IMG/VR virus record: IMGVR_UViG_3300021425_001956
Span: 1 to 25,935 of that record
DNA length: 25,935 bases
Source of the DNA: a virus
Reading direction: 5' to 3' (one strand)
Below, piece after piece: positions 3,204-23,654 of the stretch (the first letter of the stretch is position 1; every line of letters begins with the position of its first letter). The translations under genes were made by a program, and so were the position numbers. The notes under the pieces are model-generated. The model had not been told where the DNA came from, made no database searches, and saw only the letters and a program-made list of their open reading frames with translations.

Positions 3204-5660
3204 ATGTCTTTTTATACTAATTTTGACCGGCGCGGTAATTCCGTCCTGTATCGTGGGTACAACCATCAAGGTAAACCCATCATGACAAAGTACAAGCTCG
3301 AACCCGAGCTCTTTGTCCCTACTAAAACTCAAACTGAATGGCGTTCGCTCGATGGCACACCCGTCGCACCCGTTCAGTTTAATCATTTCAACGAAATGAA
3401 AGACTTCATGCAAAAGTATGAAGGCGTCGAAAACTTCAAGTACTACGGTCAAGACCGTGTACTATGGCAGTTTATTCAGAAAAAGTTTCCAAACGATATC
3501 GACTTTATTCCTGGTCTGATTAACGTAGTCAACCTCGATATCGAAGTACATTCAGAAGATGGCTTCCCCGAGCCTGATGAAGCTCTACACCCGATCACAG
3601 CGATTACTCTCAAGTCGAGTAAAGAATCTGTGTATCGTGTATGGGGTTGCGGTGACTACGACAAATCAAAATCGCCGCATACTCATCTTCGCATTCAGTA
3701 TACAAAGTGTGAAGATGAATATGAGTTGATGGAAAGATTCCTAAAATACTGGGCCTCGAGCTTTCCGGAAGTTCTGACCGGCTGGAATATTCGTATGTTT
3801 GATATTCCATACATCGTGAATCGTTGTTCTAAAAGATTGTTCGGCGAAGAGACTACAAGAAAGTTTCTTTCTCCATGGGCTACGATACGAGAAAAGACTG
3901 TACATCTCAAAACAAAGACGATGAAGACTCAGCAGATTTCTGGTATTTCTCAACTCGATTATATGGATTTGTTTCAGAAGTTTGGCTATTCGTATGGTCC
4001 TCAAGAATCGTATGCATTGAATCATATTGCACACGTCGTACTCGGCGAAAAGAAACTCTCGTATGCAGAATACGGTTCTCTTCGTAATCTCTATAAAGAA
4101 AACTTTCAACTCTATATTGACTACAACATCAAAGACGTTGAGCTCATTGATCGTATGGATGAAAAGCTCGATCTCATTGGTCTCGGCTTTACTCTGGCCT
4201 ATAAAGCCGGTGTAAACTTTACAGACATCTTTGGTACTACAGCCATATGGGATTCCATTATCTTTCGCGAACTGGCTAAACGTAAGATCGCAATACCTGG
4301 TCCACCGCCTCGCCAAGAACGTGAAGGCATCAATGTCAAGTTTGCAGGTGGTTATGTAAAAGAACCACAAGTCGGTGCTCATGACTGGGTAGTTTCCTTT
4401 GATTTAAATTCGCTGTATCCGAATATCATTGCTCAATGGAACATGTCACCTGAAACTCTGACAATGAATGGTACGAACATGTCGAAAGCTGCCAACGGTG
4501 TCGGCTTTGATAATAGTCGTGAAGGTGTCTTTCCTCTGCTTGTCAAACAGTATTATGCCGAACGTAAAGATGTAAAGAAGCAGATGATCGAATGGCAGAA
4601 AGAACAGCAGAAAGGTTCTACAAAAGAGATTGAAAAACAGATTGCTTCTCTTAATAACAAACAGATGGCAGTCAAGATCTTGATGAACTCTCTGTTCGGC
4701 GCTATCGGCAATAAGTGGTATCGTTATTTCGATCTTCGAGTTGCAGAAGGTATCACTTTGACTGGTCAGCATGTGATTAAGACATGTGAGAAAGCCATTA
4801 ACGAAGAGATGAATAAACTTCTCGAGACAAACGAAGATTATGTGATCGCAATCGATACAGATTCAGTCTATGTAAACTTCGAAGCGTTTGTCAAGAAGTT
4901 CAATCCAAAAGATCCTGTGAAATTCCTAGACGAATCGTGTAATAAACATTTTGCAAAGATACTCGAAAAGACTCTTGCAGATCTCTGTACAGAAATGAAT
5001 TGTTTCGAAAACCGTATGGTCATGGAACGTGAAGTCATTGCAGATCGTGGTATATGGACAGCAAAGAAGCGGTATATTCTCAATGTACATAACTCAGAAG
5101 GAGTACAGTACGATGAACCTAAGCTTAAAATTATGGGCATCGAGGCCATTAAGTCGTCGACCCCTGAAGTTTGTCGAACTAAGTTTAAGGAAATATTCAA
5201 GCTTATCATTCAGGCGTCTGAAGCGGATGTACAGAACTTCATACAGAAATTCAAACAAGATTTCAAATCGCTCCCACCCGAAGAAGTGGCTTTTCCACGG
5301 GGAGTCACGAAAATTACAGACTGGTCAGATCGGAAAACTGTCTACAAGAAAGGTACACCTATTCACGTGCGGGGTTCCCTCTTATATAACAAAGAAGCTA
5401 AGGCTCGAGGATTGACGGATAGGTACGAGCTTATCGGAAATGGTGATAAGATCAAATTTGCCTACCTCAAACTTCCCAATCATATCAAAGAAAATGTCAT
5501 CTCATTTCCTATGCACCTACCAACCGAGATGCAACTTCATCGATATATAGATTACGATAAGCAGTTTGATAAAACGTTCCTCGAGCCTTTGCGTTTTATC
5601 CTCGACGCGGTCGGGTGGTCTGCTGAAGAACGTGCAACACTCGAAGACTTTTTTGTATGA
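3204..5660 (+). CDS. 43: Family B DNA polymerase gp43
   Basis: The 818-residue replicative polymerase has 3'-5' exonuclease motifs LDIEVH (D112, E114), GWNIRMFD (D200) and YNIKD (D311). Its polymerase motifs are [13 protein letters not shown] (D400); [11 protein letters not shown] (491-500); and C, DTDSV (D551, D553). T4 gp43 has its first exonuclease acids at the same positions, 112 and 114. The C-terminus LEDFF resembles a clamp-binding tail. It is about 80 residues shorter than T4 gp43. The start is ATG 3204 after TAGGAGG, with a dedicated early promoter. It shows no intein, split or frameshift. Confidence 0.98.
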
Positions 5661-5715: not shown

Positions 5716-6129
5716 ATGAATCAATGGCACCATGACATCAATGAAATGCATGCTAAGTATGGCGTGCATGATTGGATGGAAAAGAACAAAGACAATCCGG
5801 AACTCATGCAAAAGTTTCTCGACTTTCGTATTAAGTTCCTTGAAGAAGAATTAAATGAAACAAAGGCAGCAGCCACATACGATCGCAACGCACCCGAAGT
5901 TGTTGACGGTCTGATCGATCTTTGTGTGATTGCAATCGGTACTCTCGATGCTTTCGGTGTTGACGCTCAGAAAGCATGGGAAGCTGTACACACAGCGAAT
6001 ATGGCCAAAGAAGTTGGTGTAAAAGAAAGCAGACCAAATCCACTTGGTCTACCAGATTTGATTAAGCCTGAAGGTTGGGTAGGACCGAAACATCATGACA
6101 ACACCGGTAATCTCGGGGACGCTGTTTAA
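5716..6129 (+). CDS. MazG/HisE-like nucleoside triphosphate pyrophosphohydrolase
   Basis: The 137-residue all-alpha protein has the metal-binding EEExxE signature (residues 43-48, FLEEELNET) and a second acidic helix with E61, D64 and D68 (APEVVDGLIDLCV). It ends with the usual AWEAVHTANMAKE motif. Family members hydrolyse (d)NTPs to NMP and pyrophosphate. In a phage that may modify cytosine, it could play the dCTPase part filled by gp56 in T4; that is inference. ATG 5716 follows GAAGGAG and its own promoter. The last 35 bases overlap the next gene. Confidence 0.82.
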   Translation: MNQWHHDINEMHAKYGVHDWMEKNKDNPELMQKFLDFRIKFLEEELNETKAAATYDRNAPEVVDGLIDLCVIAIGTLDAFGVDAQKAWEAVHTANMAKEVGVKESRPNPLGLPDLIKPEGWVGPKHHDNTGNLGDAV

Positions 6130-7391: not shown

Positions 7392-7543
7392 TGACTGAAG
7401 CGCTTAAAAAATATTTCGAAAATGGTGGCACAATTACAAAGTGTCGACCTTCTAACAAACGTCCAGAGCCACGCAGATATTCTGGTTCTACAGCAAATCG
7501 TGGTCGCAAAGCTGAAACATTAGGTGATAGGAGATATTTCTAA
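7391..7543 (+). CDS. Basic phage protein of unknown function, 50 aa
   Basis: ATG 7391 overlaps the previous stop and the frame ends in TAA 7541-7543, overlapping the next ATG. The first 13 residues are helical (MTEALKKYFENGG). The rest is very basic and poor in hydrophobic residues (CRPSNKRPEPRRY, TANRGRKAETLGDRRYF), which suggests a nucleic-acid-binding tail. GATAGGAG, the ribosome-binding site of the next gene, lies inside its end. Function unknown. Confidence 0.6.
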   Translation: MTEALKKYFENGGTITKCRPSNKRPEPRRYSGSTANRGRKAETLGDRRYF

Positions 7544-7914
7544 TGAAATATTCTTTAAAGGTGCTGCAACGCGCAGCTGAAATTCAAACAAAGAAAAGTT
7601 CGGATTATCAAAATCCGAACTCACGTATTAAACAAGCAGATTACTATGTTCGTGGTTGTTCTACGATCCTCGATACAATCCATGCGAAAGTTCTTCGTAT
7701 GCAATCTGTTTGTGAAGCAATGGAAGCTGATCCAAACTATGGTCAAAACTTCGAATCACTCGAAGACTCTTGTCTTGATCTGATTAACTATGCTTCCTTC
7801 TTTGCCTCATACATGAATGGTGAGATGGAAGGTCAAGACCCAAGTCGTGACATGTTCAATAGACCTGCAAAGGAAACAACAAATGAAAATCGGGATAACA
7901 GCGTCGACGTTTGA
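7543..7914 (+). CDS. Nmad1/DUF1599-like protein
   Basis: This 123-residue protein resembles the nucleotide-modification-associated domain 1 family (DUF1599). It shows KKSSDYQNPNSRIKQADYY, a Leu/Lys-rich helix (TIHAKVLRMQSVCEAM) and the acidic SLEDSCLDLINYASF motif, close to the family's E-x3-D-L-I-N-Y-A signature. Nmad domains were defined by their association with modified-base genes in phages; their chemistry is not settled. It lies just upstream of a cytidylyltransferase and a TS-fold gene, which fits that theme. The end overlaps the next gene by 32 bases. Confidence 0.6.
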   Translation: MKYSLKVLQRAAEIQTKKSSDYQNPNSRIKQADYYVRGCSTILDTIHAKVLRMQSVCEAMEADPNYGQNFESLEDSCLDLINYASFFASYMNGEMEGQDPSRDMFNRPAKETTNENRDNSVDV

Positions 7915-8329
7915 TCTGTTACACGCAGGTCACATCGAAATGTTGCGTGAAGCGAAAGCTCAATGCGACTATTTAATTTGTGCTCTACAAATCGATCCAA
8001 GTATTGATAGGCCAGAAAAAAATCAACCCGTACAGACGATCGTAGAGCGTTACACTCAACTTGATGCCGTAAAGTTTGTAGATGAAATTATACCGTACTT
8101 ACATGAAACAGATCTCGAAGATATCCTCCAAATGCGTGCAATCACTGTACGAATACTGGGTGAGGAATACCGCGATCGCGATTTTACTGGTCGTGATATT
8201 TGTAAACAGCGAGATATTGATCTCTATTTTAACAAACGCGACCACCGTTTCTCCTCTAGCGGCTTGAGACAGCGCGTACACGGTTTAGAAATAAAAAAGG
8301 AGGTAATGGGTGATGCTCACAGTAAATGA
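7883..8329 (+). CDS. Cytidylyltransferase-family nucleotidyltransferase (TagD-like)
   Basis: The 148-residue protein has the nucleotidyltransferase HxGH motif at H14-A-G-H17 within ITASTFDLLHAGH. The downstream signature, ISSTxxR in relatives, appears as FSSSGLRQR. Length and pattern match glycerol-3-phosphate or ethanolamine-phosphate cytidylyltransferases, which activate a phosphorylated alcohol as a CDP derivative. The true substrate cannot be told. The start is ATG 7883 inside the end of the Nmad1-like gene; the longer upstream frame is not needed. The end overlaps the next gene. Confidence 0.85.
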   Translation: MKIGITASTFDLLHAGHIEMLREAKAQCDYLICALQIDPSIDRPEKNQPVQTIVERYTQLDAVKFVDEIIPYLHETDLEDILQMRAITVRILGEEYRDRDFTGRDICKQRDIDLYFNKRDHRFSSSGLRQRVHGLEIKKEVMGDAHSK

Positions 8330-8981
8330 TATCCGAAAATATTTTATTCAGGAGTTACAAGATGAAAATTTCACGGTGGATCGCACAGACTCAAAGACCA
8401 TCGAACTTATCGGTGCAAGTTTCATCGCTGATGAGGAAGCAATCTTTGGTGAGCCGAATATTCCTTATATTGATGCTGAGCTCGATTGGTATCTTAACTG
8501 TTCAACTAACATCAACGATATCGGATATAAAGACGAGCCTCCAAAGGCTTGGACATATGCAGCAAATAAATACGGAGAAATTAACAGTAATTATGGAAAA
8601 CTCATCTTCGATGATAAATACTACAGACAGTACGACAACGTCCTCAACGAACTAGCGGACAATCCTTTTAGTCGTCGTGCTACAATGGTTTATACACGAC
8701 CTTCGATATGGACAGAGTTCAATGAGAATGGTAAAAACGATTTTATTTGTACTAATGCTGTTACTTATTACATACGCGATGACCAAGTCCACGCTGTATG
8801 CCAAATGCGATCAAACGACGTCGTGTTTGGATACAAGAATGATTATGCTTGGCAGCGTTATGTAATGGATCTCGTTGCAACCGATCTGTCTGGTGGCAAT
8901 AAAAACTACACTGCTGGTAATCTATATTGGCAAGTGCAAAACCTCCACGTTTACGAAAGGCATTTTGATCTTGTCAAATAA
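8313..8981 (+). CDS. Thymidylate synthase-fold enzyme, probable dCMP hydroxymethylase
   Basis: From ATG 8313 (222 aa) the protein aligns without gaps to E. coli ThyA around the active site: catalytic C146 (FICTNA), R166-S-x-D169, G173 and, further on, H-x-Y (LHVYERH, H212). The residue at 177 is Asp where thymidylate synthases have Asn. Asn to Asp here is the known switch from dUMP to dCMP recognition in T4 dCMP hydroxymethylase (gp42). A ThyX elsewhere in the window already covers dTMP synthesis. The protein is shorter than ThyA (264 aa). AAGGAGG is at 8297-8303; GTG 8310 is an alternative start. The product would be 5-hydroxymethyl-dCMP. Confidence 0.75.
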   Translation: MLTVNDIRKYFIQELQDENFTVDRTDSKTIELIGASFIADEEAIFGEPNIPYIDAELDWYLNCSTNINDIGYKDEPPKAWTYAANKYGEINSNYGKLIFDDKYYRQYDNVLNELADNPFSRRATMVYTRPSIWTEFNENGKNDFICTNAVTYYIRDDQVHAVCQMRSNDVVFGYKNDYAWQRYVMDLVATDLSGGNKNYTAGNLYWQVQNLHVYERHFDLVK

Positions 8982-9444
8982 ATGGGATCTACGTTTCCTT
9001 GAATTAGCAAGAGGCATAGCTGAATGGTCAAAAGATCCTTCACGTAAAATCGGTGCGATTGCAGTCGATGACCGGTCTGTTGTGGCTCAAGGTTATAACG
9101 GTTTCCCACGTGGCATTGAAGACTATGCCGAGCGATACGAAGATCGCGATCTCAAATACAAGTTAGTCGTTCATGCAGAAATGAACGTCATATATAATGC
9201 TACGTACAATGGAGTATCTCTTGATGGTGCAACGTTGTACGTATGGGGTTTGCCAGTTTGTGGTGACTGCGCCAAGGGTGTGATACAAACTGGAATTAAA
9301 AGAGTGGTGATGCCCAAACAGGATATCCCAGAACATTGGGCAGAATCATGGAACTTAACAAAACAAATGTTCGAAGAGACGAACGTAAGATGGGAGTTTA
9401 TCGATGTCAGCAACACAGGAATGGATCAAAGAACAATTTGCTAG
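8971..9444 (+). CDS. cd: Deoxycytidylate deaminase
   Basis: The zinc-dependent deaminase fold is clear: H68-A-E70 (VVHAEMNVI) supplies one ligand and the proton shuttle, and C97/C100 (LPVCGDC) supply the other ligands. GYNGFPRG is the usual substrate loop. It converts dCMP to dUMP, feeding dTMP synthesis by ThyX. The frame runs back into the upstream gene, and no ATG precedes the domain. TTG 8971 (MSNKWDLRF) with GAAAGG ten bases upstream is the best start; TTG 8965 is also possible. It overlaps the TS-like gene by 11 bases, so the two enzymes that compete for dCMP are coupled. Confidence 0.9.
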   Translation: MSNKWDLRFLELARGIAEWSKDPSRKIGAIAVDDRSVVAQGYNGFPRGIEDYAERYEDRDLKYKLVVHAEMNVIYNATYNGVSLDGATLYVWGLPVCGDCAKGVIQTGIKRVVMPKQDIPEHWAESWNLTKQMFEETNVRWEFIDVSNTGMDQRTIC

Positions 9445-9556
9445 AGATTCAAAACCGGTGATCACCGAGTATTCATTGCAAAAAGAGGTAAATGAATTAA
9501 GGGAAGACGTAAAGAAACTTCAAGAAGACATATCATGGTTAATGCGACAAGGGTAA
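9404..9556 (+). CDS. Short coiled-coil protein, 50 aa
   Basis: ATG 9404 lies within the deaminase end in another frame, with GGGAG (9392-9396) seven bases upstream. The product has an N-terminal WIKEQFARDSKP stretch and a C-terminal heptad helix (SLQKEVNELREDVKKLQEDI) typical of a small dimeric coiled coil. It overlaps both neighbours. The coiled-coil character and ribosome-binding site support it; function unknown. Confidence 0.6.
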   Translation: MSATQEWIKEQFARDSKPVITEYSLQKEVNELREDVKKLQEDISWLMRQG

Positions 9557-9918
9557 TTGTAATAGGTCATAGTCCAGGCAATTCCAAAATAAAATTTAAA
9601 TCGAAATCACCCACCTTAAGAAGACTCGATATGTGGCTGGGTGAATGTGATGTGAACTTATATAGCTTTGTGAATCTCTGTGCATCCAGTGTCAGTTCTC
9701 TGAAATCAGCACAAATTGATGAAACATTAATTCAAGAATGTATTCAAGGCTATACAAAGATTATAGCATTAGGTAACGAAGTATCACATTATTTCACAAA
9801 AAGAGGTGTGGAGCACTTTCCGGCTCCACACCCTTCTCCACTTAATAGGAAGTTTAACGATAAAACCTTTGAACCGGCAGTAATTAAAGGTTTACAATCG
9901 TATCTAAATAGTGTATAA
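9535..9918 (+). CDS. Uracil-DNA glycosylase superfamily protein
   Basis: The 127-residue protein has a UDG-fold pattern: strand plus GHSPG at 11-15 (RVIVIGHSPGNS), LYSFVNLCAS, TKIIALGNEVSHYF, and the H-P-S-P-L-N-R motif at 99-105 matching the HPSPLS motif of UDGs. It is shorter than UNG and lacks the canonical GQDPYH water-activating loop. It may be a specialised glycosylase or a base- or nucleotide-binding relative. It sits beside the putative cytosine-modification genes. The start is ATG 9535 inside the previous small gene. A 10-bp inverted repeat lies in its coding sequence. Confidence 0.65.
   Translation: MVNATRVIVIGHSPGNSKIKFKSKSPTLRRLDMWLGECDVNLYSFVNLCASSVSSLKSAQIDETLIQECIQGYTKIIALGNEVSHYFTKRGVEHFPAPHPSPLNRKFNDKTFEPAVIKGLQSYLNSV
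9805..9832 (+). repeat. Perfect 10-bp inverted repeat inside the UDG-like gene
   Basis: GGTGTGGAGC (9805-9814) and GCTCCACACC (9823-9832) are exact complements around an eight-base loop. The arms are much more GC-rich than the surroundings. There is no T-run after it, so it is not a standard terminator. It spans the codons leading into the HPSP motif. Confidence 0.6.
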
Positions 9919-9919
9919 T
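9891..9919 (+). promoter_or_regulatory. Early-type promoter for the sugar block
   Basis: TTTACA (9891-9896), 17 bp, TATAAT (9914-9919). It lies in the last codons of the UDG-like gene; the next gene begins 23 bases later. This is the only member of the family without TG one base before the -10. Confidence 0.72.
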
Positions 9920-9941
9920 ATTATGAAACACGGAGTATATC

Positions 9942-10958
9942 ATGAAGATCTTGATCACCGGCATGAACAAGCAACAGTGCACCGAAAACTTTTACAAGGG
10001 TTCACAGCTTAAAATTATTCCTTCACATATTTCTCTGATCGCATGCCTCAGAGATATGGGACATACCGTCGAACAGCGTATCGTCACCATCGGTGAAGAC
10101 CTTTCCTCATACGACAAAATTATTTGTTACATCCACAATCCATCAGGTTTTGCAGGCTTTGTGTATAATGCTTTATGGCTAATCAATGAAGTACCTGACT
10201 GTGTACTTGCATTTGATGACTGGCAGACTGACAGCATTTACAAAGGTCTTACCGCACTTGAAGATACTGAAAAACTTTTCCGTAAATATGTTCTCGATGG
10301 TCATAAGCATATACCTGATAACATTCGAGATTATGAAAAGCAATTGTTGCAAGGTATCTCAATTGTAAAACAGAAAAAGAATAAGATGTTGATCAGCGCA
10401 TTTGCTGGCGGTAATCTTACAAGACTGCTGGATTATCCTGAAGAACTTATGTTCTCTTTTAATCCAAACCCATATCATATCAACTTACAATCCAACTTCA
10501 ATCCACTCTTTGAAGAGAAAGCTCGTGTATTTAACTTTGCCGGGTTAATGCAAGATAAAACAAAGAAGTGGGTTAAAGACCAGAGCATCGGTGAATGGGA
10601 ACTCAAGAAATACGGTTCTCGAAAAGATGGTCAAGATCGTGTAACCGAACCAGAGATGGTCAACATATATGGACAGCAATGGGGTATCCTCATGCCAGGA
10701 TATTTCCATGCTGGCTCTGGCTGGTGGCGAGCAAGACCGCTTCAAGTTGCAGATGCCGGCTCGATTCTGATCGGCGATTGGAAAGAGATGGTGATCTACT
10801 ACGATGACGACGAACTCGCTTCTCTCAAAGGTCAGTGGATTACGTTGATGAGTGATAAACAGCTCGAAGAAGTAGCACACGCCCAAAAAGAAGCCATATA
10901 TAAAACACACCCGCTGGACAAAGGTGTACAGCAGGATGAGTTAAGGAGAATCCTATGA
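9942..10958 (+). CDS. Glycosyltransferase-like protein (GT-B-like)
   Basis: The 338-residue protein begins like a Rossmann-type domain (MKILITGMNKQQ, then SLIACLRDMGHTVEQR and YDKIICYIHNPSG). The second half contains AGSGWWRARPLQVADAGSILIGDWKEMV, the position where GT-B enzymes bind the sugar nucleotide (R-x-x-E/Q-x-x-x-x-G). Membership in a named GT family cannot be shown by eye. The mutase and epimerase that follow overlap head to tail, which suggests it uses the sugar they make. Target could be modified DNA, virion or cell surface. ATG 9942 has CGGAG upstream. Confidence 0.5.
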   Translation: MKILITGMNKQQCTENFYKGSQLKIIPSHISLIACLRDMGHTVEQRIVTIGEDLSSYDKIICYIHNPSGFAGFVYNALWLINEVPDCVLAFDDWQTDSIYKGLTALEDTEKLFRKYVLDGHKHIPDNIRDYEKQLLQGISIVKQKKNKMLISAFAGGNLTRLLDYPEELMFSFNPNPYHINLQSNFNPLFEEKARVFNFAGLMQDKTKKWVKDQSIGEWELKKYGSRKDGQDRVTEPEMVNIYGQQWGILMPGYFHAGSGWWRARPLQVADAGSILIGDWKEMVIYYDDDELASLKGQWITLMSDKQLEEVAHAQKEAIYKTHPLDKGVQQDELRRIL

Positions 10959-11965
10959 AGATATTAGTTGTAGGTGCGGGCTTTGCAGGTGCTACGGTTG
11001 CTCGCATTCTTGCAGAAGAAGGTCATGAGATTACGGTAATCGATAAACGTGATCACGTGGCTGGTAATGCGTATGACTATACAAACGAGTATGGCATTCG
11101 TGTACACAAATATGGTCCTCATCTCTTTCATACAAATAACAAGAAGGTCTTTGATTTTCTTGGTCGATTTACTGAATGGGTACCGTATCGTCATAAAGCA
11201 AAAGCTCAGCTTGAAGATGGTCGATATGTACCGTTTCCCGCAAATCGAATTACGAAAGAGATTGTAGGCGAAGAAAACATTCTCGACATTTTCTTCAGAC
11301 CGTATACAAGAAAGATGTGGGGTAAAGAACTTGAAGAGCTTGATCCGAGTATTATTAAGCGTGTACCTGTTAAAGATAATGACAATGAAGATTATTTTCC
11401 AAAAGATAATTACCAAGCGTTACCACTCTTTGGCTATACAGACTTGGTTACACGTATGCTCGACCATGAGAATATCGACGTAAGATTGAATGTGTCTTTC
11501 GATAAGGTATGGCTTAATTACTCGGATCATTGTTTCAACTCGATGCCAATCGACGAGTACTTTGATTTCAATCATGGTGAATTACCGTATCGTTCAATTA
11601 AATTCCACAATACAGATCTTCCGATGTCGAAGGTTCTTCCGACTACGACTGTAAACTTTACACATGATGGTCCATATACAAGAGTTACAGAATGGAAGAA
11701 CATGCCATGTCATGGTTACAATTCAAACTTTACGACATTGACATACGAAGAACCCTGTGATTATCGAGACAACGATATGGAAAGATACTATCCAGTCAAA
11801 GATGTCGACGGTGAGAATCGTGAGAGATACGAGAAATATAAAGAAATGATCAGTCCAAATATGACCTTCATCGGTCGTTGTGGTCAGTATGTTTATGTTG
11901 ACATGCATCAGGCGGTGAACTCAAGCATACAAGTTGCAGAGAAATTTATAAAGGAAAACACATGA
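10955..11965 (+). CDS. glf: UDP-galactopyranose mutase
   Basis: This FAD enzyme interconverts UDP-galactopyranose and UDP-galactofuranose; relatives also act on UDP-arabinopyranose. The 336-residue protein has the dinucleotide-binding GAGFAGA at 7-13, the family motif DHVAGNAYDY with HKYGPHLFHTNN, the FFRPYTRKMWGKELEELDPSIIKRVP segment, and the C-terminal FIGRCGQYVYVDMHQAV that closes the FAD site. Length is near the bacterial norm (about 370-390), slightly short. It overlaps both neighbours by four bases (ATGA), so all three are translated as one unit. Confidence 0.95.
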   Translation: MKILVVGAGFAGATVARILAEEGHEITVIDKRDHVAGNAYDYTNEYGIRVHKYGPHLFHTNNKKVFDFLGRFTEWVPYRHKAKAQLEDGRYVPFPANRITKEIVGEENILDIFFRPYTRKMWGKELEELDPSIIKRVPVKDNDNEDYFPKDNYQALPLFGYTDLVTRMLDHENIDVRLNVSFDKVWLNYSDHCFNSMPIDEYFDFNHGELPYRSIKFHNTDLPMSKVLPTTTVNFTHDGPYTRVTEWKNMPCHGYNSNFTTLTYEEPCDYRDNDMERYYPVKDVDGENRERYEKYKEMISPNMTFIGRCGQYVYVDMHQAVNSSIQVAEKFIKENT

Positions 11966-12720
11966 AAATTTCATTAACAGGTGCCAGTGGATTTATTGGC
12001 AATCATCTTCTGACAAAGCTGTGGGATGATGGACACGAAGTCATGAAGTGGGATCGTAAGAGCGGTCGGGATATCAAAGACTGGGAACTCGAAGGCTGTG
12101 ACTTTGTAGTTCATCTTGCTGCCGATGCAGATGTACGTCGTTCGATCCTTGAACCAGATCTGTACTGGGATAATAACGTCGAGACTACCAAACGTATTCA
12201 AGAAATTTGTAGAGTCAATCAAGTCCCGCTGGTCTATGCATCTTCTTCTTGTATTCATGCATGGCATAAATCGCCGTATGGTATCAGTAAGCGTGTCAAC
12301 GAGATCACAGCTTATACTACACCGTTTGGCGTCAATAATCAGGTCGGTCTTCGCTTTACGACAGTCTACGGTGATGGTGCTCGTGATACCATGTTTATGG
12401 GTAAGTTAATGAGAGGCGAAGTCAAGTACGCAACAAATCACGTTCGTGACTTTATTCATGTCGATGATGTTGTAAAAGCCATCATGATCTTTATAAATAC
12501 AGGTACCAAAGGTAAACTTCCAGCGTATGACGTTGGTACTGGAACTGGCCATATTGTATCTAAGCTCGCACAAATCAAATATCCGAATATCGAAATCCGA
12601 GAGGGTGACGACTGCGAAGCACAGGATAATACAGCAGACAATTCTGATCTAAGAGCACTCGGTTGGGAACCGACAATAAATGCTCGTGGCTATGTACAAA
12701 ACAATGGAAATGTGATATAA
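11962..12720 (+). CDS. NAD-dependent sugar epimerase/dehydratase (extended SDR)
   Basis: The 252-residue protein has the NAD motif GASGFIG at 7-13, LAADADVR, the serine strand YASSSC (92-97) and catalytic Y106-x3-K110 (SPYGISK). RDFIHVDD, typical of extended SDRs such as GalE and RmlB, follows. It likely acts on a nucleotide sugar, for example making the UDP-hexose or UDP-pentose used by the mutase upstream. It is shorter than GalE (about 340). The last codons hold the promoter for uvsX. Confidence 0.9.
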   Translation: MKISLTGASGFIGNHLLTKLWDDGHEVMKWDRKSGRDIKDWELEGCDFVVHLAADADVRRSILEPDLYWDNNVETTKRIQEICRVNQVPLVYASSSCIHAWHKSPYGISKRVNEITAYTTPFGVNNQVGLRFTTVYGDGARDTMFMGKLMRGEVKYATNHVRDFIHVDDVVKAIMIFINTGTKGKLPAYDVGTGTGHIVSKLAQIKYPNIEIREGDDCEAQDNTADNSDLRALGWEPTINARGYVQNNGNVI

Positions 12721-12741: not shown

Positions 12742-13788
12742 ATGTCGATTATGGATAAACTCAAGAAGAACAGTAAAGTCAAAGAAACTTCTGTTCTATC
12801 TGAATCAAAATTCTTTACAGAGAAAGATATGGTTGCAACAGATGTTCCAATGATGAACGTTGCTCTGTCTGGCTCTATGGATGGCGGTCTTGCGCCCGGT
12901 CTGACGGTACTTGCGGGCCCATCAAAACACTTTAAGACCTCGTTTGGTCTGATTATGGCAGCAGCTTATTTGAGAAAATACAAAGACGCTGTGCTTCTCT
13001 TCTACGATTCAGAGTTTGGTTCACCCCAAGCTTATTTCGAACAGTATGATATCGATACATCGCGTGTCCTTCATACACCGATTACGAACGTAGAAGAACT
13101 CAAGTTTGATCTGATCGGTCAACTTGAACAACTCGATCGTAAAGACAAAGTCGTCGTTATGATTGATTCTGTTGGTAACCTAGCATCTAAAAAAGAATTG
13201 GAAGATGCTATCAACGAGAAGTCGGTTGCAGATATGTCACGTGCGAAAGCACTTAAAGGTCTGTTCCGTATGACAACTCCGTATCTGAACATGAAAGATA
13301 TTCCACTGATTGCAGTCAATCATACTTACATGGAAATCGGTCTGTTCCCGAAAGCTGTAGTATCTGGTGGTACAGGTATTTACTATTCGGCAGATAATAT
13401 CTGGATTCTTGGTCGTCGTCAGAACAAACAAGGCACTGAAGTGACTGGCTATGATTTTGTAATTAATGTGGAGAAATCGCGTTATGTTAAAGAAAAATCT
13501 AAAATCCCTATTAGCGTCTCTTGGAGCGGTGGTGTCGAGCGGTATTCTGGTCTACTCGACGTGGCTCTCGCAGGGAACTTTGTTGCAAAGCCTAGCAATG
13601 GTTGGTATTCTCGTGTCGATACTAGCACTGGAGAGTTCCTCGGAACCAAAGTCCGAGAAAAAGAAACCCTAAGTGAAGAGTTCTGGAAGCCAATCTTTGA
13701 CGAGACAAACTTCGCAGAATATATAAAAGAAAGCTTCTCAATCGGTGGCAATCGTTCGAACGAACTGGATATCGAAAATGAAGCATGA
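12742..13788 (+). CDS. uvsX: RecA-like recombinase UvsX
   Basis: The 348-residue strand-exchange ATPase has Walker A as GPSKHFKTS (59-67), Walker B as VVVMIDSVGNL (D142), and the DNA-binding loop region MSRAKALKGLFRMTTPYLN. The GGTGIYYSADNIWILGRRQ segment is typical of T4-type UvsX. It coats single-stranded DNA for recombination-dependent replication and repair. ATG 12742 follows AAGGAG (12729-12734) and its own promoter. As in T4, it lies just before the gp41 helicase gene. Confidence 0.97.
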   Translation: MSIMDKLKKNSKVKETSVLSESKFFTEKDMVATDVPMMNVALSGSMDGGLAPGLTVLAGPSKHFKTSFGLIMAAAYLRKYKDAVLLFYDSEFGSPQAYFEQYDIDTSRVLHTPITNVEELKFDLIGQLEQLDRKDKVVVMIDSVGNLASKKELEDAINEKSVADMSRAKALKGLFRMTTPYLNMKDIPLIAVNHTYMEIGLFPKAVVSGGTGIYYSADNIWILGRRQNKQGTEVTGYDFVINVEKSRYVKEKSKIPISVSWSGGVERYSGLLDVALAGNFVAKPSNGWYSRVDTSTGEFLGTKVREKETLSEEFWKPIFDETNFAEYIKESFSIGGNRSNELDIENEA

Positions 13789-15586: not shown

Positions 15587-15792
15587 TGCTGGTAGGATCT
15601 TTTGTCACAGACTCGAATGGTATTGAGCATTTTATTGAAAATAAAAGTGCGGGCTATTATCTATTACAAGATGCTCAGATTATGATCAATGAATTGAAAC
15701 ATACAGACGTACAAGAAAAATGGAAAAGACAAATAGATGAACGTAAGACTGATCAGTTACTCACAGACTCCGGAGGATCTCTATGTCGGTGA
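15586..15792 (+). CDS. Phage protein of unknown function, 68 aa
   Basis: ATG 15586 shares a base with the previous stop. The first 30 residues look like a small beta domain (MLVGSFVTDSNGIEHFIENKSAGYYLLQD). A charged helix follows (AQIMINELKHTDVQEKWKRQIDERKTDQ). It overlaps the thyX start by 56 bases, and its C-terminal GGSLCR region is encoded over that overlap. No known family recognised. Confidence 0.6.
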   Translation: MLVGSFVTDSNGIEHFIENKSAGYYLLQDAQIMINELKHTDVQEKWKRQIDERKTDQLLTDSGGSLCR

Positions 15793-16405
15793 AGATATAC
15801 AAGAACTCATTGCGTATTGCGCCCGTGTCTCGAACCCCTCGAACCAAGATAACACCGAAACGTCCGAAAGATTGCTATCATACCTTGCAAAACACGCGCA
15901 TTGGTCGCCTTTCGAAATGGTGTCTGCTTGCCTAGAGATTGAAACTACAAGAGATATTGCAAGACAGATTCTTCGTCATCGTTCTTTCTCTTTTCAAGAG
16001 TTTAGTCAGAGATATGCGAATCCACTTGAAGATCTAAAACTAACACCTACGACTGAAATCAGAGCACAAGATCCAAAGAATCGTCAAAACTCGGTAGAGC
16101 GCGAAGATGTTGATATTCAAATGGATTGGGTCAAAGCACAGTGTGAAGTAATTAATGCTGCAAAGAAAGCATATCAGTTTGCAATCGATAATGGTATCGC
16201 AAAAGAGATTGCACGTAAAGTATTACCAGAAGGCTTGACTGAATCACGATTGTATATGAATGGTACAATTCGTTCTTGGATTCATTTCATTGAGTTACGG
16301 TCTGGTAACGGTACACAAAAAGAATGCCAAGAGGTTGCACTCGCATGTGCTAAAGCAATTACAGAAATCTTTCCATTAGCGGATAAGTTCATTGCCAAGT
16401 CATAA
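15737..16405 (+). CDS. thyX: FAD-dependent thymidylate synthase ThyX
   Basis: ThyX methylates dUMP to dTMP using methylenetetrahydrofolate, NADPH and FAD. The 222-residue protein has the diagnostic RHRX7S motif as R80-H81-R82...S90 (RHRSFSFQEFS), followed by QRYANP. The N-terminal ARVSNP and the C-terminal RSWIHFIELRSGNGTQKECQEVA are also typical. ATG 15737 lies inside the upstream gene. Because dTMP is made here, the TS-fold gene at 8313-8981 is free for another reaction. Confidence 0.96.
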   Translation: MNVRLISYSQTPEDLYVGEDIQELIAYCARVSNPSNQDNTETSERLLSYLAKHAHWSPFEMVSACLEIETTRDIARQILRHRSFSFQEFSQRYANPLEDLKLTPTTEIRAQDPKNRQNSVEREDVDIQMDWVKAQCEVINAAKKAYQFAIDNGIAKEIARKVLPEGLTESRLYMNGTIRSWIHFIELRSGNGTQKECQEVALACAKAITEIFPLADKFIAKS

Positions 16406-18444: not shown

Positions 18445-18575
18445 GGGGGCGAAATAGGATCGACAGGTATTGAGTCTTCAAAGTAGTAACTGCAAACGAT
18501 AACTTTGCACCTTTGGCTGCCGCAGCGTAGTCATTGGGCCCGCCGAGAGCCTCGAAACAGAATCTCGGCAACTTT
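18445..18575 (+). ncRNA. ssrA: tmRNA coding piece with degradation tag
   Basis: It begins GGGGGCGAAATAGGATCGACAG, close to the conserved tmRNA 5' end with its GGAT-CGAC D-loop sequence. The tag reads ANDNFAPLAAA then TAG. Only eight bases separate helix P2 from the resume codon, so the usual pseudoknot PK1 is missing. The linker between pieces (18417-18444) holds a 7-bp hairpin, ATGCCAC/GTGGTAT, likely removed during maturation. The 3' end is estimated. Confidence 0.88.
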
Positions 18576-18585
18576 AAGGATTATT

Positions 18586-19101
18586 ATGTTTCTATTTTGG
18601 TCTTACATTTCATATCTAATTTTAGCAACAATAGGTGCCACCTATGGTTTACATAGATATTGGGCTCATCGAAAAGGTGAGCGTAAGATTTGGTTCGAGT
18701 GGTTGTCTTTGGCATGTGCTCTACTAATCGGCGTCTATAAGCCAATCTCTTGGGTCGGTATTCACAGACTGCATCATAAGTATAGTGATACACCTCGAGA
18801 TCCTCATTCACCAATATATCAAGGATTTTGGAATGTATTTCTGTCAAGATGGAAAGGTCATATTCCCTATCATCTTGTAAAGGATTGTGTAAGAAATGAG
18901 CGTCTGAAGTTTTTTCAGAGATACGGTAAATATTTAATATGGCCAGTTATTCTTTTCTCACCACTTACAATTCTTTTTGGATATATTGGAATCGGTATAC
19001 TTAACACGGCAGGTCATTCGAATGGTCCATCAAATCATTGGTGGATAAATCTCTTTGCACCTTTCGAAGGAAATCACAAAGATCATCATGAAGGTTTATG
19101 A
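18586..19101 (+). CDS. Short fatty-acid desaturase-like membrane protein
   Basis: The 171-residue protein has the three histidine boxes of acyl desaturases: HRYWAH (box 1), HRLHH (GIHRLHHKYSDTPRDPHSP, box 2) and HKDHH (GNHKDHHEG, box 3), plus hydrophobic spans between them. These enzymes put a double bond in fatty acyl chains with a di-iron centre. It is much shorter than typical delta-9 desaturases (about 250-300) and ends right after box 3, so it may be minimal or degenerate. The frame extends upstream through the tmRNA, but ATG 18586 with AAGGA just before is the sensible start. Confidence 0.85.
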   Translation: MFLFWSYISYLILATIGATYGLHRYWAHRKGERKIWFEWLSLACALLIGVYKPISWVGIHRLHHKYSDTPRDPHSPIYQGFWNVFLSRWKGHIPYHLVKDCVRNERLKFFQRYGKYLIWPVILFSPLTILFGYIGIGILNTAGHSNGPSNHWWINLFAPFEGNHKDHHEGL

Positions 19102-20125
19102 TTTAAAAGACTGTCCTCAAATGATTACTGATCTCTTCTATGAAGAGATCGAAACAATTCAGAGGTCTGACCTTTTACTAAAACAAAATTATACGCTTGA
19201 AAGATTAAAGCTCGATGACATGTTGTCTTTCAATATACTTATTGATGATGACATCGATATCGTTTGCTTCGGTGGGCTGCAAAAGATAAGTGAAGAGGTT
19301 GCGAGAGTTTCATCGCGACATTATGTTTCTCAAAAATATGTAAAGACTTGGAAGCAAGATCGATTTAGACCAAACTGGCAGTATCTAGTGCCAAAACAAA
19401 TTCAACATGCATATGACTTAGGATACAAAGGTTTATTTTGGTCTGCTCACATCTATAAGAAAAAGTCTCTATTCGATCTTACGTGTAAGAATGCAGAAGA
19501 GTTTACTGACATAAAATTTACACCTTTACCCGGTTTGTACAATATATATGGCGTAGGACAGAGAGTTTGTCAGATCGGTGACTATGATTGCGGATTTGCA
19601 AATGAAAACGTTTTTCTTACTGATATTGAATTTGACAAATATAAAGATGAAATGTATGACATACTGAAAAACTATCCTAAAGCAAACGAAGGATGGGATG
19701 ATTCGAATCCATGGAAAGGTGAATGGATAGATGCTGATAGTGAAATCATTCACACTGTAAATCTCAATGAAGTATTACCCGAACATCCATTGATTCATCA
19801 TTTGTATGACTATTTTGAGGATATACATAAAGTCATGGTATGTAATGTGCTCAAAGGTCCGATACCAGAACATCACGATCAAAGTGAACATGCATTAAAA
19901 GACAACATGCATATTAAAATTAAACTTGACGGAGACTGGTCGAAGTTTTATGTAAGAGATCTGAAATACAATTGGAAAAAATATTTTCCTAACGATAAGA
20001 ATGTGGCTATATTTGATAATCAGAAAAATATACATGCTGTAGAATCCGGACAAATGTTGCTTATTGTTCCTTACGGTAAATTGAAAAGAGAAATATATGA
20101 ACGAGTTGATACAGAAAGTCGCTGA
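19088..20125 (+). CDS. Fusion: acyltransferase-like N-terminus and 2OG-Fe(II) oxygenase-like C-terminus
   Basis: The 345-residue protein has two parts. Residues 50-165 look GNAT-like: DDDIDIVCFGGLQ, then EEVARVSSRHYVSQKY with a helix and LGYKGLFWSAHIYKKKSLFDL. Residues 175-335 look like an aspartyl/asparaginyl hydroxylase-type cupin, with H262-x-D264 (EHHDQSEH), a second His at 316 (KNIHAVESGQ) and IKIKLDGDWSKFYV between. A Fe(II)/2OG oxygenase activity is plausible. Substrate unknown. ATG 19088 lies within the desaturase end (14-base overlap); the 3' end overlaps the next gene by 29 bases. Confidence 0.55.
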   Translation: MKVYDLKDCPQMITDLFYEEIETIQRSDLLLKQNYTLERLKLDDMLSFNILIDDDIDIVCFGGLQKISEEVARVSSRHYVSQKYVKTWKQDRFRPNWQYLVPKQIQHAYDLGYKGLFWSAHIYKKKSLFDLTCKNAEEFTDIKFTPLPGLYNIYGVGQRVCQIGDYDCGFANENVFLTDIEFDKYKDEMYDILKNYPKANEGWDDSNPWKGEWIDADSEIIHTVNLNEVLPEHPLIHHLYDYFEDIHKVMVCNVLKGPIPEHHDQSEHALKDNMHIKIKLDGDWSKFYVRDLKYNWKKYFPNDKNVAIFDNQKNIHAVESGQMLLIVPYGKLKREIYERVDTESR

Positions 20126-20921
20126 AGAAGGAATTGTAGTACTTAAAAATCAGCATATGTCTGACGAAGAGTTCTACCAGAAAAATCTAACGTGGGGTAA
20201 ACATCAAGCGTCTGGCATCCACGCATGTCATGAAGATTATCCTATCATATTTCGTGTCACAAATAAAAAGTTGCCTAACGGCAAACAAGGTCTGTTTAGT
20301 CGTGGCTTCTTAGATTGGCACTGTAATAATATGTTCTGCGTTGATCCAGAAGAAGTTGTATGTTTATGGGGTAAGAAGGTCATCAAAGATGCTCCTACTA
20401 TTTGGGCACATTGTACAAATATGTACCGAGACCTACCAGAAACTCTGAAAAAAGAATTGGATGATGTTTGGGTTACAATGTCCAATATCCATAACATCAA
20501 GGATGGTGGGCGGATCTATACCGGTGCAGGTGATCTCGATATGGAAGATGTAATCAAACTTGATAAGTGGAACTTCCGTACACGTGAGGGATTAGAAGCT
20601 GGGTTATTTGATCCGAACTTTAGTGCCAAACAACTGAAGTCGGGTCGGTATCTAATAAAGGTGAAAAAGAAGCTTGTGAGGATTCACCCAGTGACCGGAG
20701 AGAAAGTTCTATACTTCCCGTTTGGTCATATGTCAGATTTTCCACGTAAGGATGAGTTAATCGAGCGACTGATGCAACCACAATATATCTACACCCATGA
20801 ATGGGAAGAGGGTGACATCGTGTTTTCGGATCAGCTTATGACAATTCATAAACGTGATGCGACACTTGATACTGAAGAGAAAAGAGAATTGTACAGAACA
20901 ACATTCTACTACGATGTATAA
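20097..20921 (+). CDS. TauD/TfdA-like 2OG oxygenase homologue with altered metal motif
   Basis: The 274-residue protein follows the TauD layout: LDWHCNNMF (first metal motif, residues 73-80), IHPVTGEKVLYFPFGHMSDF (196-215), WEEGDIVFSDQLMTIHKRD (236-254, distal His 251) and RTTFY (R267, expected to bind 2-oxoglutarate). The first motif reads H75-x-N77 where the family has H-x-D, so the carboxylate ligand is replaced by Asn. Activity may be lost or changed. ATG 20097 overlaps the previous gene. The end overlaps the FkbM gene. Confidence 0.75.
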   Translation: MNELIQKVAEEGIVVLKNQHMSDEEFYQKNLTWGKHQASGIHACHEDYPIIFRVTNKKLPNGKQGLFSRGFLDWHCNNMFCVDPEEVVCLWGKKVIKDAPTIWAHCTNMYRDLPETLKKELDDVWVTMSNIHNIKDGGRIYTGAGDLDMEDVIKLDKWNFRTREGLEAGLFDPNFSAKQLKSGRYLIKVKKKLVRIHPVTGEKVLYFPFGHMSDFPRKDELIERLMQPQYIYTHEWEEGDIVFSDQLMTIHKRDATLDTEEKRELYRTTFYYDV

Positions 20922-21510
20922 TTTATTTAGATCAAAAAGTAAAAAACAAAGAGCTGCACACTTAAGATATTTTTTGGTGCACATGCTTTACAAATATCAA
21001 TTTCAGTTTGATACTTATGTTGATGTTGGTGCATGTAATAGTGTAGAGCTGAATCAATACTGCGATCTCTTTGACAATGTTGTAGGATTTGAACCGAATC
21101 CTTATGCGTCAATTAAATCTCGAGATAATCTAACTCTTTATAAAAATGCATTGTCTAATAGAGAGGAAGTCAGACTGTTTCATATCGATAAAACTACTCC
21201 ACATTTTTCGACAATGAATTGGGAAAAAATGAGAGAATATGTGCCGCGTGGTCATGAGTGGGAAGATATTGAAATTACTACAAAGAAACTCGATGACTTT
21301 GATCTTACACCAAATTGCATTAAGATTGATACTGAAGGTGAAGATGATGCTGTAGTTCAAGGAGCTCTTGAAACAATTCAAAGTTACAAGCCGATATTGT
21401 ACCTCGAGTTTATGAGTGACGAGACAAAACAGATTCTTATAGATATAGGATATAGCGTTGAATATTCAGAATGGATAGACAACTTCTTAATTCACAAGGA
21501 TTACCTATGA
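20914..21510 (+). CDS. FkbM-family methyltransferase
   Basis: The 198-residue SAM-dependent methyltransferase has YVDVGACNS (motif I, 35-43), VVGFEPNPYA with E60, a middle NALSNREEVRLFHI and CIKIDTEGEDDAVVQGA, the usual FkbM motif K-I-D-x-E-G. FkbM enzymes O-methylate sugars and natural products. A basic N-terminal helix (LFRSKSKKQRAAHLRYFL) precedes the domain. ATG 20914 overlaps the TauD-like stop; the end overlaps the next start (ATGA). It could methylate a sugar or hydroxyl made by its neighbours; that is inference. Confidence 0.88.
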   Translation: MYNLFRSKSKKQRAAHLRYFLVHMLYKYQFQFDTYVDVGACNSVELNQYCDLFDNVVGFEPNPYASIKSRDNLTLYKNALSNREEVRLFHIDKTTPHFSTMNWEKMREYVPRGHEWEDIEITTKKLDDFDLTPNCIKIDTEGEDDAVVQGALETIQSYKPILYLEFMSDETKQILIDIGYSVEYSEWIDNFLIHKDYL

Positions 21511-22130
21511 TTGATATGGTCAAAATTATCGACGACATCCCGTCATTTCAAGATGCGTGTCAGGAGTGTATGAAATACGGTGATGTTGATCTAGAATTAG
21601 ATTTGAAAAAGGTAACACACGAAGAGGTCGCTACTGTGCCATTACAGACTTGGCATCAGGATGGATCTCATGTAAGATATTTTCCAAAGTACAGCGCACT
21701 ATGGTGTGAAACGGCAAAGGAAGATGCACCAATTACACAGATCATATCAACAAGATTACCGGCAGTTATTGCAGAAAAATACATTGATGAAGAAGTTGTA
21801 ATGGATTTTAAAAAGACAATTGATGAAGGTTCATTCTTTAAATTTAAGAAAGAATCTCATGCTCGTCTTTATGCTATGAAAGCAAATAAAACGCCTATGC
21901 CTTTGATCGAAAAAGATGAGAGAGGTTACTACACAAGATGGTGTCCATTCATCAAAGATCCGGATAACAAATATGAACATCTTGGAATGATTATTCTTGC
22001 TCGAGATATTACAAACATTCAGTGGAAACCGAATCGACTTGTCATCATGGAGAATAAAGCAACATTACACAGACGTAAGCCTGGAACATATGATGGAGAC
22101 AGAGTACTGTGGAGAGCTTATATAAGGTAA
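21507..22130 (+). CDS. TauD/TfdA-like 2OG-Fe(II) oxygenase
   Basis: The 207-residue protein has an intact metal triad: H50-Q-D52 (TWHQDGSHVRYFPKY) and H188 (RLVIMENKATLHRRKPG), with R199 or R203 (DRVLWRAYIR) for 2-oxoglutarate. ITQIISTRLP and WKPNRLVIMEN match the core strands of TauD-like enzymes. Such enzymes hydroxylate small molecules or side chains; substrate unknown. It is shorter than TauD (283). ATG 21507 overlaps the FkbM stop (ATGA) and the stop overlaps the next ATG. Confidence 0.8.
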   Translation: MIDMVKIIDDIPSFQDACQECMKYGDVDLELDLKKVTHEEVATVPLQTWHQDGSHVRYFPKYSALWCETAKEDAPITQIISTRLPAVIAEKYIDEEVVMDFKKTIDEGSFFKFKKESHARLYAMKANKTPMPLIEKDERGYYTRWCPFIKDPDNKYEHLGMIILARDITNIQWKPNRLVIMENKATLHRRKPGTYDGDRVLWRAYIR

Positions 22131-22690
22131 TGGTCATGGGGGCAAGTAACGCCGACAATGACAATAAAACCTGGGTTGATTATCTTTCTTGCGATGGCTA
22201 TGTAGTACACAATGCAGCAGTGCGTGGCACGTCATGCGACGTACTCATCGATCAGTGGGAAAGTAACAAATGGTTCGAGCCGAATCTTGTTTTGCTAGAC
22301 ACTCCACCCCTGTTTCGCTTTCATCTTTTTGATATTGCAATAGGCGGTATCGGTCGAGATGTTCTCTATACAGACTGGTTAAAAGAATCCAAACTATATG
22401 CATGGTATAAAAAACAGTGGCCGTATAGAACTCGTGAGTCGTTTGACGTCGTTGTAAATTCACTTAATGATGCTTTAAATGACACACATAACAAAAGAGG
22501 TATGGAAACATTACATCGCAGACAGAGACAGCATGTCGATCATTTGAAACTTTTAGCGCATGTAATTGAATTGCCACAACCAAATGGTGATCTTGACGAA
22601 TTACACTATACGGAAGAAAGACATCAAGAAATAGCAGATATAGCAGAGACCATTATCAATGAACAAATACTTCACTCATCTCGCTCTTGA
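22130..22690 (+). CDS. SGNH/GDSL-like hydrolase
   Basis: The 186-residue protein starts with an SGNH block I, MVMGASNADN (Ser6), and ends its core with a block V, DELHYTEERHQE (D156, H159), the catalytic Asp-His pair. A strand, FEPNLVLLDTPP, lies between. Such enzymes are esterases or acetyl hydrolases, often acting on sugar O-acetyl groups. ATG 22130 overlaps the previous stop (TAATG); GTG 22109 would add seven residues and is an alternative start. The 3' end overlaps the next gene by 32 bases. Confidence 0.7.
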   Translation: MVMGASNADNDNKTWVDYLSCDGYVVHNAAVRGTSCDVLIDQWESNKWFEPNLVLLDTPPLFRFHLFDIAIGGIGRDVLYTDWLKESKLYAWYKKQWPYRTRESFDVVVNSLNDALNDTHNKRGMETLHRRQRQHVDHLKLLAHVIELPQPNGDLDELHYTEERHQEIADIAETIINEQILHSSRS

Positions 22691-23654
22691 TTACGATTCA
22701 GAATCTCTGATAGAAGAATCAAAGACTGCGACGTATAAGCCATTTGAAAGTGGCTATGATAATGGAACGTTCTTTGCACATGCACCAACATGGTTACAAG
22801 GTCGTGTTACTCAATTTGATGATTTTCCTGAAATTAAAAGACTTACTGATTTCATTGCTCATAAAATTAACTCGAAAGATGTACGACCTCGTTTCTATAA
22901 ACAAGAAGCGAACACTGCTGTTCCCATGCATAGAGACCAAAATACAAAATGTTGCGTTAACATCGTATTGTCAGAAGATGCCGCACCAATAGTTTGGGAA
23001 GACATAGGACCAATATCGTATGACTGTGCTCTTTTAAATATCACAGAAAGCCATGAAGTACCAGCTCATCCTCATGAAAGACTTCTTTTAAAGTTTTCGA
23101 TATTTGACGTGACATATGAAGAAGCAGTTAAAAGATGGACAACGCCTATTATAAAAATTGGAGAGGTAGATCTAGACCTATTGCTTTTAGAATCTGATAC
23201 AGTGGAATATGACGGGCAAATATGCCTTCAAGGGGTTAAAGGCAATCTTGATCCTTATTTAGGAATAGGTCAAGCTGGTGGATATAATAGTTGGGAAAGA
23301 CAACAAAAACATAGTTATAAATCTGAGGAATTCAACATACCTATATTCGACTTGAAAAATATAAATGAAGCACTTACAAAGTTTGGTATGGTTCACACGC
23401 GCCTAATGACTGTAAAACCGAAGTCGTGTTATTCTTACCATGTTGACTCTAGAAAAAGACTACATATTCCACTCGAAACAAATGAACACTGTTGGTTTAT
23501 TATTGATAAAGAGATGCATCATTTGCCAGCTGATGGCTCCGTTTATTTGGTTGACACAATGCTACCGCATACGTTTATAAATTGTGGTTCAGAACCTAGA
23601 ACACATATAGTGTCTCAGTCGATAATCAATCCAAATTTATTTAATCTATCATAA
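22659..23654 (+). CDS. Tandem-domain 2OG-Fe(II) oxygenase-like protein
   Basis: The 331-residue protein contains two cupin-type oxygenase-like units. Unit 1 has H91-R-D93 (VPMHRDQNTKCCVNI), H132 (ESHEV) and R141 (ERLLLKF). Unit 2 has H261-V-D263 (YSYHVDSRKRLHIPL), H304 (LPHTFINCG) and R314. Unit 2 resembles Asp/Asn beta-hydroxylase domains, and unit 1 matches the minus-strand protein at 23615-24106. The whole would be a duplicated or fused oxygenase. ATG 22659 is in the SGNH gene end. It runs tail to tail into the minus-strand gene with a 40-base overlap. Confidence 0.68.
   Translation: MNKYFTHLALDYDSESLIEESKTATYKPFESGYDNGTFFAHAPTWLQGRVTQFDDFPEIKRLTDFIAHKINSKDVRPRFYKQEANTAVPMHRDQNTKCCVNIVLSEDAAPIVWEDIGPISYDCALLNITESHEVPAHPHERLLLKFSIFDVTYEEAVKRWTTPIIKIGEVDLDLLLLESDTVEYDGQICLQGVKGNLDPYLGIGQAGGYNSWERQQKHSYKSEEFNIPIFDLKNINEALTKFGMVHTRLMTVKPKSCYSYHVDSRKRLHIPLETNEHCWFIIDKEMHHLPADGSVYLVDTMLPHTFINCGSEPRTHIVSQSIINPNLFNLS

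Follow-up and report, generated by a model that had tools for sequence, protein, structure and literature searches.

Locus layout

The window analysed here is the whole of the IMG/VR viral record IMGVR_UViG_3300021425_001956 (25,935 nt, 25.9 kb), in which a cassette of eight genes lies between the genes for DNA polymerase and the recombinase UvsX (Table 1). A sequence-only reading had proposed that this cassette modifies cytosine and decorates it with a furanose sugar. The eight open reading frames (ORFs) on which that proposal was built are all present, in the order given there and at or near the positions given. The last three encode a candidate glycosyltransferase (GT, used below for the 9942–10958 product and its relatives), a UDP-galactopyranose mutase (UGM) and a nucleotide-sugar epimerase of the short-chain dehydrogenase/reductase (SDR) family, and overlap head to tail by 4 bases each, at 10955–10958 and 11962–11965.

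The gene order in T4 is 43 – imm genes – 42 – b-gt – segA – uvsX, and in the window it is DNA polymerase, followed at a distance by dCMP hydroxymethylase – dCMP deaminase – uracil-DNA glycosylase (UDG)-like – GT – UGM – SDR – uvsX, with GT in the position of b-gt. As the order of the cassette genes recurs in dozens of IMG/VR contigs, it is not a product of chance. The nearest relative of the window DNA polymerase is that of Kyanoviridae phage C48C1, followed by those of Synechococcus T4-like phages. On homology, the assignments of the dCMP hydroxymethylase, the dCMP deaminase, UGM and the SDR-family sugar-nucleotide epimerase are considered secure, as is the linkage of their genes. We conclude that the region, which has the T4 '43 – 42 – b-gt – uvsX' position, probably serves cytosine hypermodification in two stages, with a probability of roughly 0.6.

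Table 1. Features of the putative modification locus and its borders, with positions in the 25,935 nt window
Feature	Position	Strand	Evidence
DNA polymerase (gp43), upstream border	3204..5660	+	52.7% identity to phage C48C1 DNA polymerase
MazG-like nucleotide pyrophosphohydrolase	5716..6129	+	PF01503 E 7e-9; PHROG 671 E 6e-21
Nmad1/DUF1599-like protein	7543..7914	+	PF07659 E 0.01, below cut-off; accompanies cassette
HldE/TagD-like nucleotidylyltransferase	7883..8329	+	PF01467 E 5e-11; TIGR02199 E 3.5e-18, below cut-off
dCMP hydroxymethylase, T4 gp42 type	8313..8981	+	52% identity to T4 gp42, E 3.6e-71
dCMP deaminase	8971..9444	+	PF00383 E 2e-17; PHROG 174 E 5e-42
Short UDG-superfamily-like protein	9535..9918	+	PF03167 E 6e-4, below cut-off
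Inferred DNA 5-hydroxymethylpyrimidine glycosyltransferase (GT)	9942..10958	+	PHROG 14998; b-gt slot, neighbour statistics, AGT replacement
UDP-galactopyranose mutase (UGM)	10955..11965	+	PF03275 E 1.5e-54; PDB 3hdq E 1e-73; active-site Arg, Tyr, Trp conserved
Short SDR nucleotide-sugar epimerase, GalE-like	11962..12720	+	PF01370 E 1.5e-27; YGISK motif
UvsX recombinase, downstream border	12742..13788	+	Homologous to T4 uvsX, which sits by b-gt

The probable modified base

The hydroxymethylase is homologous over its full length to T4 gp42 (PDB 1b49), and its match to the best thymidylate synthase in the PDB is far weaker (E about 4e-10). It retains the catalytic Cys and the equivalent of Asp179, and the FICTN and YKNDYAW motifs align. 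Cys148 is the catalytic residue of the T4 enzyme, and Asp179 is the position that is Asn in thymidylate synthases. A thyX gene is found at 15737–16405, so that a second thymidylate synthase is not needed and the enzyme would be dispensable for dTMP. The gp42 match, the Asp and the nearby ThyX together rule out a thymidylate synthase.

In the arabinosylating phages RB69 and CHI14, a homologous enzyme yields 5-hydroxy-dCMP (5-hodCMP) instead (PMC13390438). For this reason it matters that the window product shares only 25–28% identity with the RB69 and CHI14 5-hodCMP synthases, which are ~80% identical to each other, and an enzyme of the RB69 type is ruled out at this distance. As the enzyme is of the gp42 type, is distant from the 5-hodCMP synthases and is accompanied by ThyX, the modified base is most likely 5-hydroxymethylcytosine (hmC). 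Two further nucleotide-pool genes were recovered as the sequence-only reading had them, namely the dCMP deaminase gene, which probably starts at a TTG near 8971, and the gene for the MazG-like protein, which could serve in the removal of dCTP.

The transferase candidate and its neighbours

The sole family match of the GT product is PHROG 14998, a family of unknown function (E 2e-39). Its family did not match PF11440, PF09198 or a profile of the T4 DNA alpha-glucosyltransferase (AGT), and hhalign comparison with the AGT-like family returned a probability of 1–3%, which is only noise. Membership of the AGT or beta-glucosyltransferase (BGT) families was rejected, as neither sequences nor profiles matched. 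Since no profile method ties GT to a known fold, its placement among the transferases is functional and is drawn from genomics. The earlier label 'glycosyltransferase-like' thus finds no backing in any named family, but genomic context does support a role in DNA glycosylation. From three lines, namely the b-gt slot, the replacement by AGT homologues in sister phages and the linkage to hydroxymethylase or Tet/JBP genes, we infer that GT is a DNA glycosyltransferase.

Relatives of GT were found at 63 IMG/VR loci. The hydroxymethylase gene lies within 3 kb of the GT gene in 38 of the 42 loci with enough upstream sequence, the remaining four being L027, L028, L056 and L067 (L-numbers are labels of the compared phage loci). 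In place of the hydroxymethylase gene, the GT–UGM locus of L056 has a gene for a protein with a Mom-family domain (PF25680, E 5e-8; locus segment 8032–9666), which overlaps the end of the UGM gene. A scan of genome contigs for GT was uninformative, yielding four loci that were all in metagenome-assembled bins, with the gene present twice on one contig.

When the C48C1 version of GT was used as the query, 19 further loci were returned. A Tet/JBP oxygenase takes the place of the hydroxymethylase in all of those with an upstream flank (17/17), and the hydroxymethylase is found in none. These loci also carry an epimerase and, wherever the downstream flank exists, UGM, and their GTs form a separate sister clade of the transferase tree with support of 1.0. 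In L213, the same slot reads Tet/JBP – transferase – UGM – SDR – UvsX – gp41 – ThyX. One transferase–mutase pair is therefore partnered by two unrelated enzymes that form 5-hydroxymethylpyrimidines. In phage C48C1 (L002, 10586–13035) and in L208–L226, the cassette consists of Tet/JBP oxygenase – (nucleotidyltransferase) – GalE-like – GT – UGM. No PF00145 methyltransferase was found in C48C1, so thymine may be the target there, giving 5-hydroxymethyluracil in a base J-like modification.

More distant members of the GT family (24% identity; PHROG 14998, E 2e-24) are found in Gualtarvirus phages, inside a cassette of the RB69 type that includes a 5-hodCMP synthase with 81% identity to the RB69 enzyme and an arabinose-5-phosphate isomerase-like SIS protein. 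The RB69 transferase ORF003c was not found in Gualtarvirus phages. A distant PHROG 14998 member is likewise present in an RB69-type arabinose cassette without ORF003c in Providencia phage PSTRCR_121 (L082, 6372–12791), and is a possible additional arabinosyltransferase.

The slot after the hydroxymethylase

A survey of the slot, anchored on the hydroxymethylase, covered 80 loci, with gene content counted over 79. The commonest alternative to GT after the hydroxymethylase is an AGT homologue. The one in L124 matches PF11440 (E 7e-36), and its family profile recovers AGT crystal structures at E 8e-83. In L105, L106 and L120, GT takes the exact place of the L124 AGT homologue, between a UDG-like gene and an epimerase – dehydrogenase – methyltransferase set that are common to these loci and L124; between L105 and L124, the shared flanking genes are 53–79% identical. 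GT is present in 13 of the 79 loci and an AGT homologue in 26, but both are present in none (hypergeometric P 0.003, with the kinship of the loci ignored). AGT and BGT were also not found in the 13 GT-bearing records searched, while the T4 control matched both. The exchange with AGT is the best evidence that the GT family glycosylates hmC in DNA, an activity that is predicted from gene content.

Other occupants of the slot were also seen. Downstream of the AGT homologue in L124 (7726–11926) come genes for an epimerase and a UDP-glucose dehydrogenase and one that resembles C5-methyltransferase genes, a combination that, with the AGT homologue alone as the criterion, was counted in 24/79 hydroxymethylase loci. 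This set is a candidate for uronic-acid decoration of hmC. A homologue of TAGT/beta-glucosyl-HMC-alpha-glucosyltransferase fills the slot in L108, and a member of the same cluster is present in L155. In L111 (7289–11399), the slot holds a set of four genes (c5–c9–c7–c6) with no Pfam match, and c5 or c6 is present in 21/79 loci. One member of the set matches PHROG 7093, 'threonine dehydratase', and the set hints at a non-sugar decoration dependent on pyridoxal phosphate.

The probable sugar donor

The window UGM has the Pfam GLF domain and an N-terminal FAD-binding domain (185 bits against a cut-off of 26), and scores just below the cut-off of the TIGR00031 equivalog (292.7 and 303.75 bits, respectively). 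Aligned with DrUGM, it is identical at the active-site residues Tyr179, Trp184, Arg198, Tyr209, Arg305, Tyr335 and Tyr370, and the only checked residue that has changed is Asn372, which is Asp. UGM directly adjoins GT in 43 of 61 loci. Of the 18 loci where it does not, 17 belong to one clade, the 173 kb member of which has a UGM elsewhere (34% identical). UGM is also located elsewhere in the L105 contig, and is encoded by every GT-bearing IMG/VR record longer than 100 kb among those searched.

The SDR carries the YxxxK motif as YGISK. In L027, a bona fide UDP-glucose 4-epimerase homologue overlaps GT (E 1.5e-41), and its relatives are found in most of the Tet/JBP loci. As GalE homologues join the GT–UGM pair in relatives and UGM is intact, the simplest donor route would lead from UDP-glucose through UDP-galactopyranose to UDP-galactofuranose. 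Genes for an arabinose-5-phosphate isomerase and an NTP-transferase/kinase, which are present in RB69 and Gualtarvirus, were not found among the window ORFs at 7543–12720. The proposal of a furanose is supported. Of the two that had been suggested, galactofuranose (Galf) is preferred to arabinofuranose, since the module of relatives includes bona fide epimerases of the GalE type and genes for an arabinose pathway are absent. Galf on hmC is thus the probable outcome, with another sugar next.

Proposed pathway and alternatives

Comparative evidence now supports both the base half and the sugar half of the joined pathway put forward in the sequence-only reading. In the first stage, before replication, dCMP, possibly released from dCTP by the MazG-like enzyme, would be converted to 5-hydroxymethyl-dCMP, while the deaminase would divert dCMP to dUMP for ThyX, and hmC would be incorporated by the phage polymerase. 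In the second stage, host UDP-glucose would be converted to UDP-galactopyranose by the SDR, aided by host GalE, and then contracted to UDP-Galf by UGM. The 9942–10958 enzyme would move Galf onto the hydroxyl of hmC in DNA, and the resulting galactofuranosyl-hmC would block type II and type IV nucleases. The activity and acceptor of GT, the supply of Galf as donor and a role in counter-defence are predictions that go beyond the sequence.

Several observations weigh against this pathway. PDB and Pfam profile searches revealed no similarity of GT to any glycosyltransferase that has been named or structurally solved, and GT relatives without UGM exist, in the arabinose cassettes of Gualtarvirus as well as in Gordonia phage Mareelih. 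Conversely, UGM relatives (62–67% identity) are found without this GT in other marine phage clusters, and as these resemble surface-glycan clusters, UGM alone is not diagnostic of DNA modification. The window SDR is below the GalE cut-off (best NCBIfam match TIGR01179 galE, E 1e-18; 66.9 against 262), and an SDR 59% identical to it follows an AGT homologue in L142 without UGM. The compared loci also lack phylogenetic independence.

The alternative that survives best, although we consider it unlikely, is that hmC is glycosylated with a sugar other than Galf, which could be galactopyranose, glucose or, if a different UDP-sugar, for instance UDP-arabinopyranose, is the UGM substrate, the arabinofuranose of arabinofuranosyl-hmC. 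The window SDR is not certain to be GalE, and the distant PHROG 14998 members (24%) lie in RB69-type arabinose cassettes that lack UGM. However, the Gualtarvirus members are distant, the window has no arabinose-pathway gene, and clear UDP-glucose 4-epimerase homologues accompany the GT–UGM pair in relatives. It is much less probable that UGM, GT and the SDR build a Galf-containing glycan of the host surface or virion, for superinfection exclusion or receptor change, and that the adjacent hydroxymethylase is a coincidence. UGM relatives do occur in clusters of marine phages alongside ORFs that look like methyltransferases and glycosyltransferases (read by eye), and the interpretation of pelagimyophage sugar genes as LPS-modifying (PMC7029224) counts in the same direction, but this explanation fails here because it accounts neither for the tight association with two unrelated enzymes of base hydroxylation nor for the b-gt slot and the AGT exchange. 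Least probable of all is that hmC is left bare, or is capped by a transferase encoded elsewhere in a genome of which 26 kb is known, and that the 9942–10958 product is not a transferase, as the placement of GT beside the hydroxylase is conserved at long range and GT is mutually exclusive with AGT homologues.

Relationship to known systems

Glycosylated hmC and arabinosylated 5-hydroxycytosine are already known. The window locus resembles the T4 glucosyl-hmC system (gp42, a-gt and b-gt) in its homologous hydroxymethylase and in the order polymerase – 42 – transferase – uvsX. However, the T4 transferases use host UDP-glucose, whereas the predicted window transferase belongs to an unrelated family and has its own mutase and epimerase. 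In the arabinosyl-hydroxycytosine system of RB69, NP and CHI14, a sugar-nucleotide module is similarly found between the polymerase and uvsX, by a thymidylate-synthase-fold enzyme (PMC6024577), and the Gualtarvirus version houses the distant member of the GT family. RB69 has a 5-hodCMP synthase and attaches arabinose directly to 5-hydroxycytosine (PMC13390438), whereas the window enzyme is of the hydroxymethylase type and the arabinose genes are absent from the cassette. The base J and TAGT systems pair Tet/JBP with a glycosyltransferase, as the sister loci and C48C1 join this GT and UGM to Tet/JBP, but the window hydroxymethylase would act on the nucleotide, no Tet/JBP gene is adjacent and GT is not a TAGT (PF20691). 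Bacterial UGM/galactofuranosyltransferase pathways use the same mutase family, with conserved active-site residues. The known ones make cell-surface glycans, while the window mutase gene overlaps the transferase gene near the hmC genes.

Other genes of the cassette and window

The ORFs that had been read as Nmad1-like and as having a UDG fold are both present, but their family matches are weak and fall below the cut-offs. The Nmad1-like gene lies within 3.5 kb of GT in 37 of 41 IMG/VR loci, and overlaps it in L066. The ORF read as a cytidylyltransferase has a clear fold of that kind. As its HldE/TagD-like type occurs in cassettes of the hydroxymethylase and the Tet/JBP kind, and alongside either type of transferase, it is not specific to UGM. 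Further downstream, at 18505–23654, are genes for a fatty-acid desaturase, two TauD-like oxygenases, an FkbM methyltransferase and an Asp/Asn beta-hydroxylase-like protein, which are unrelated to the cassette.

Implications

Judged from its genes, this marine T4-like phage most likely replaces cytosine with hmC and attaches to it a sugar with a five-membered ring, probably Galf, and the sugar-capped DNA coat should protect it against host DNA-cutting defences. No report of Galf on phage DNA, or of UGM together with hmC, was found in a literature search that lacked key recent work on 5-hydroxycytosine glycosylation.

A broader reading, to which we give slightly less than even odds, is that the members of PHROG 14998 are DNA furanosyltransferases of a new family, which cap 5-hydroxy(methyl)pyrimidines. 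GalE, transferase and UGM would then be a plug-in module joined to three unrelated or divergent hydroxylation routes, namely the dCMP hydroxymethylase, the Tet/JBP oxygenase and, for the distant members and arabinose, the 5-hodCMP synthase. On the same reading, the product in C48C1-like phages without a C5 methyltransferase may be galactofuranosyl-hydroxymethyluracil, which would be the phage equivalent of base J. As arabinose from arabinose-5-phosphate is plausibly a furanose too, the family may, speculatively, consist of furanosyltransferases generally. If the main reading, Galf on hmC, is true, its predictions are testable in the cultured phages Aeromonas phiAS4 and Erwinia FBB1, which have the hydroxymethylase, GT and UGM and no AGT or BGT, and the transferase is a possible reagent with which to tag hmC with a non-glucose sugar. 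Furanose would then be placed on phage DNA via a pathway and a transferase family that are new to DNA modification, and functions would be gained for PHROG 14998 and for phage UGM genes that have so far been read as encoding host cell-wall enzymes. Between the hydroxymethylase and uvsX, marine T4-like phages would have a slot in which hmC decorations can be exchanged.

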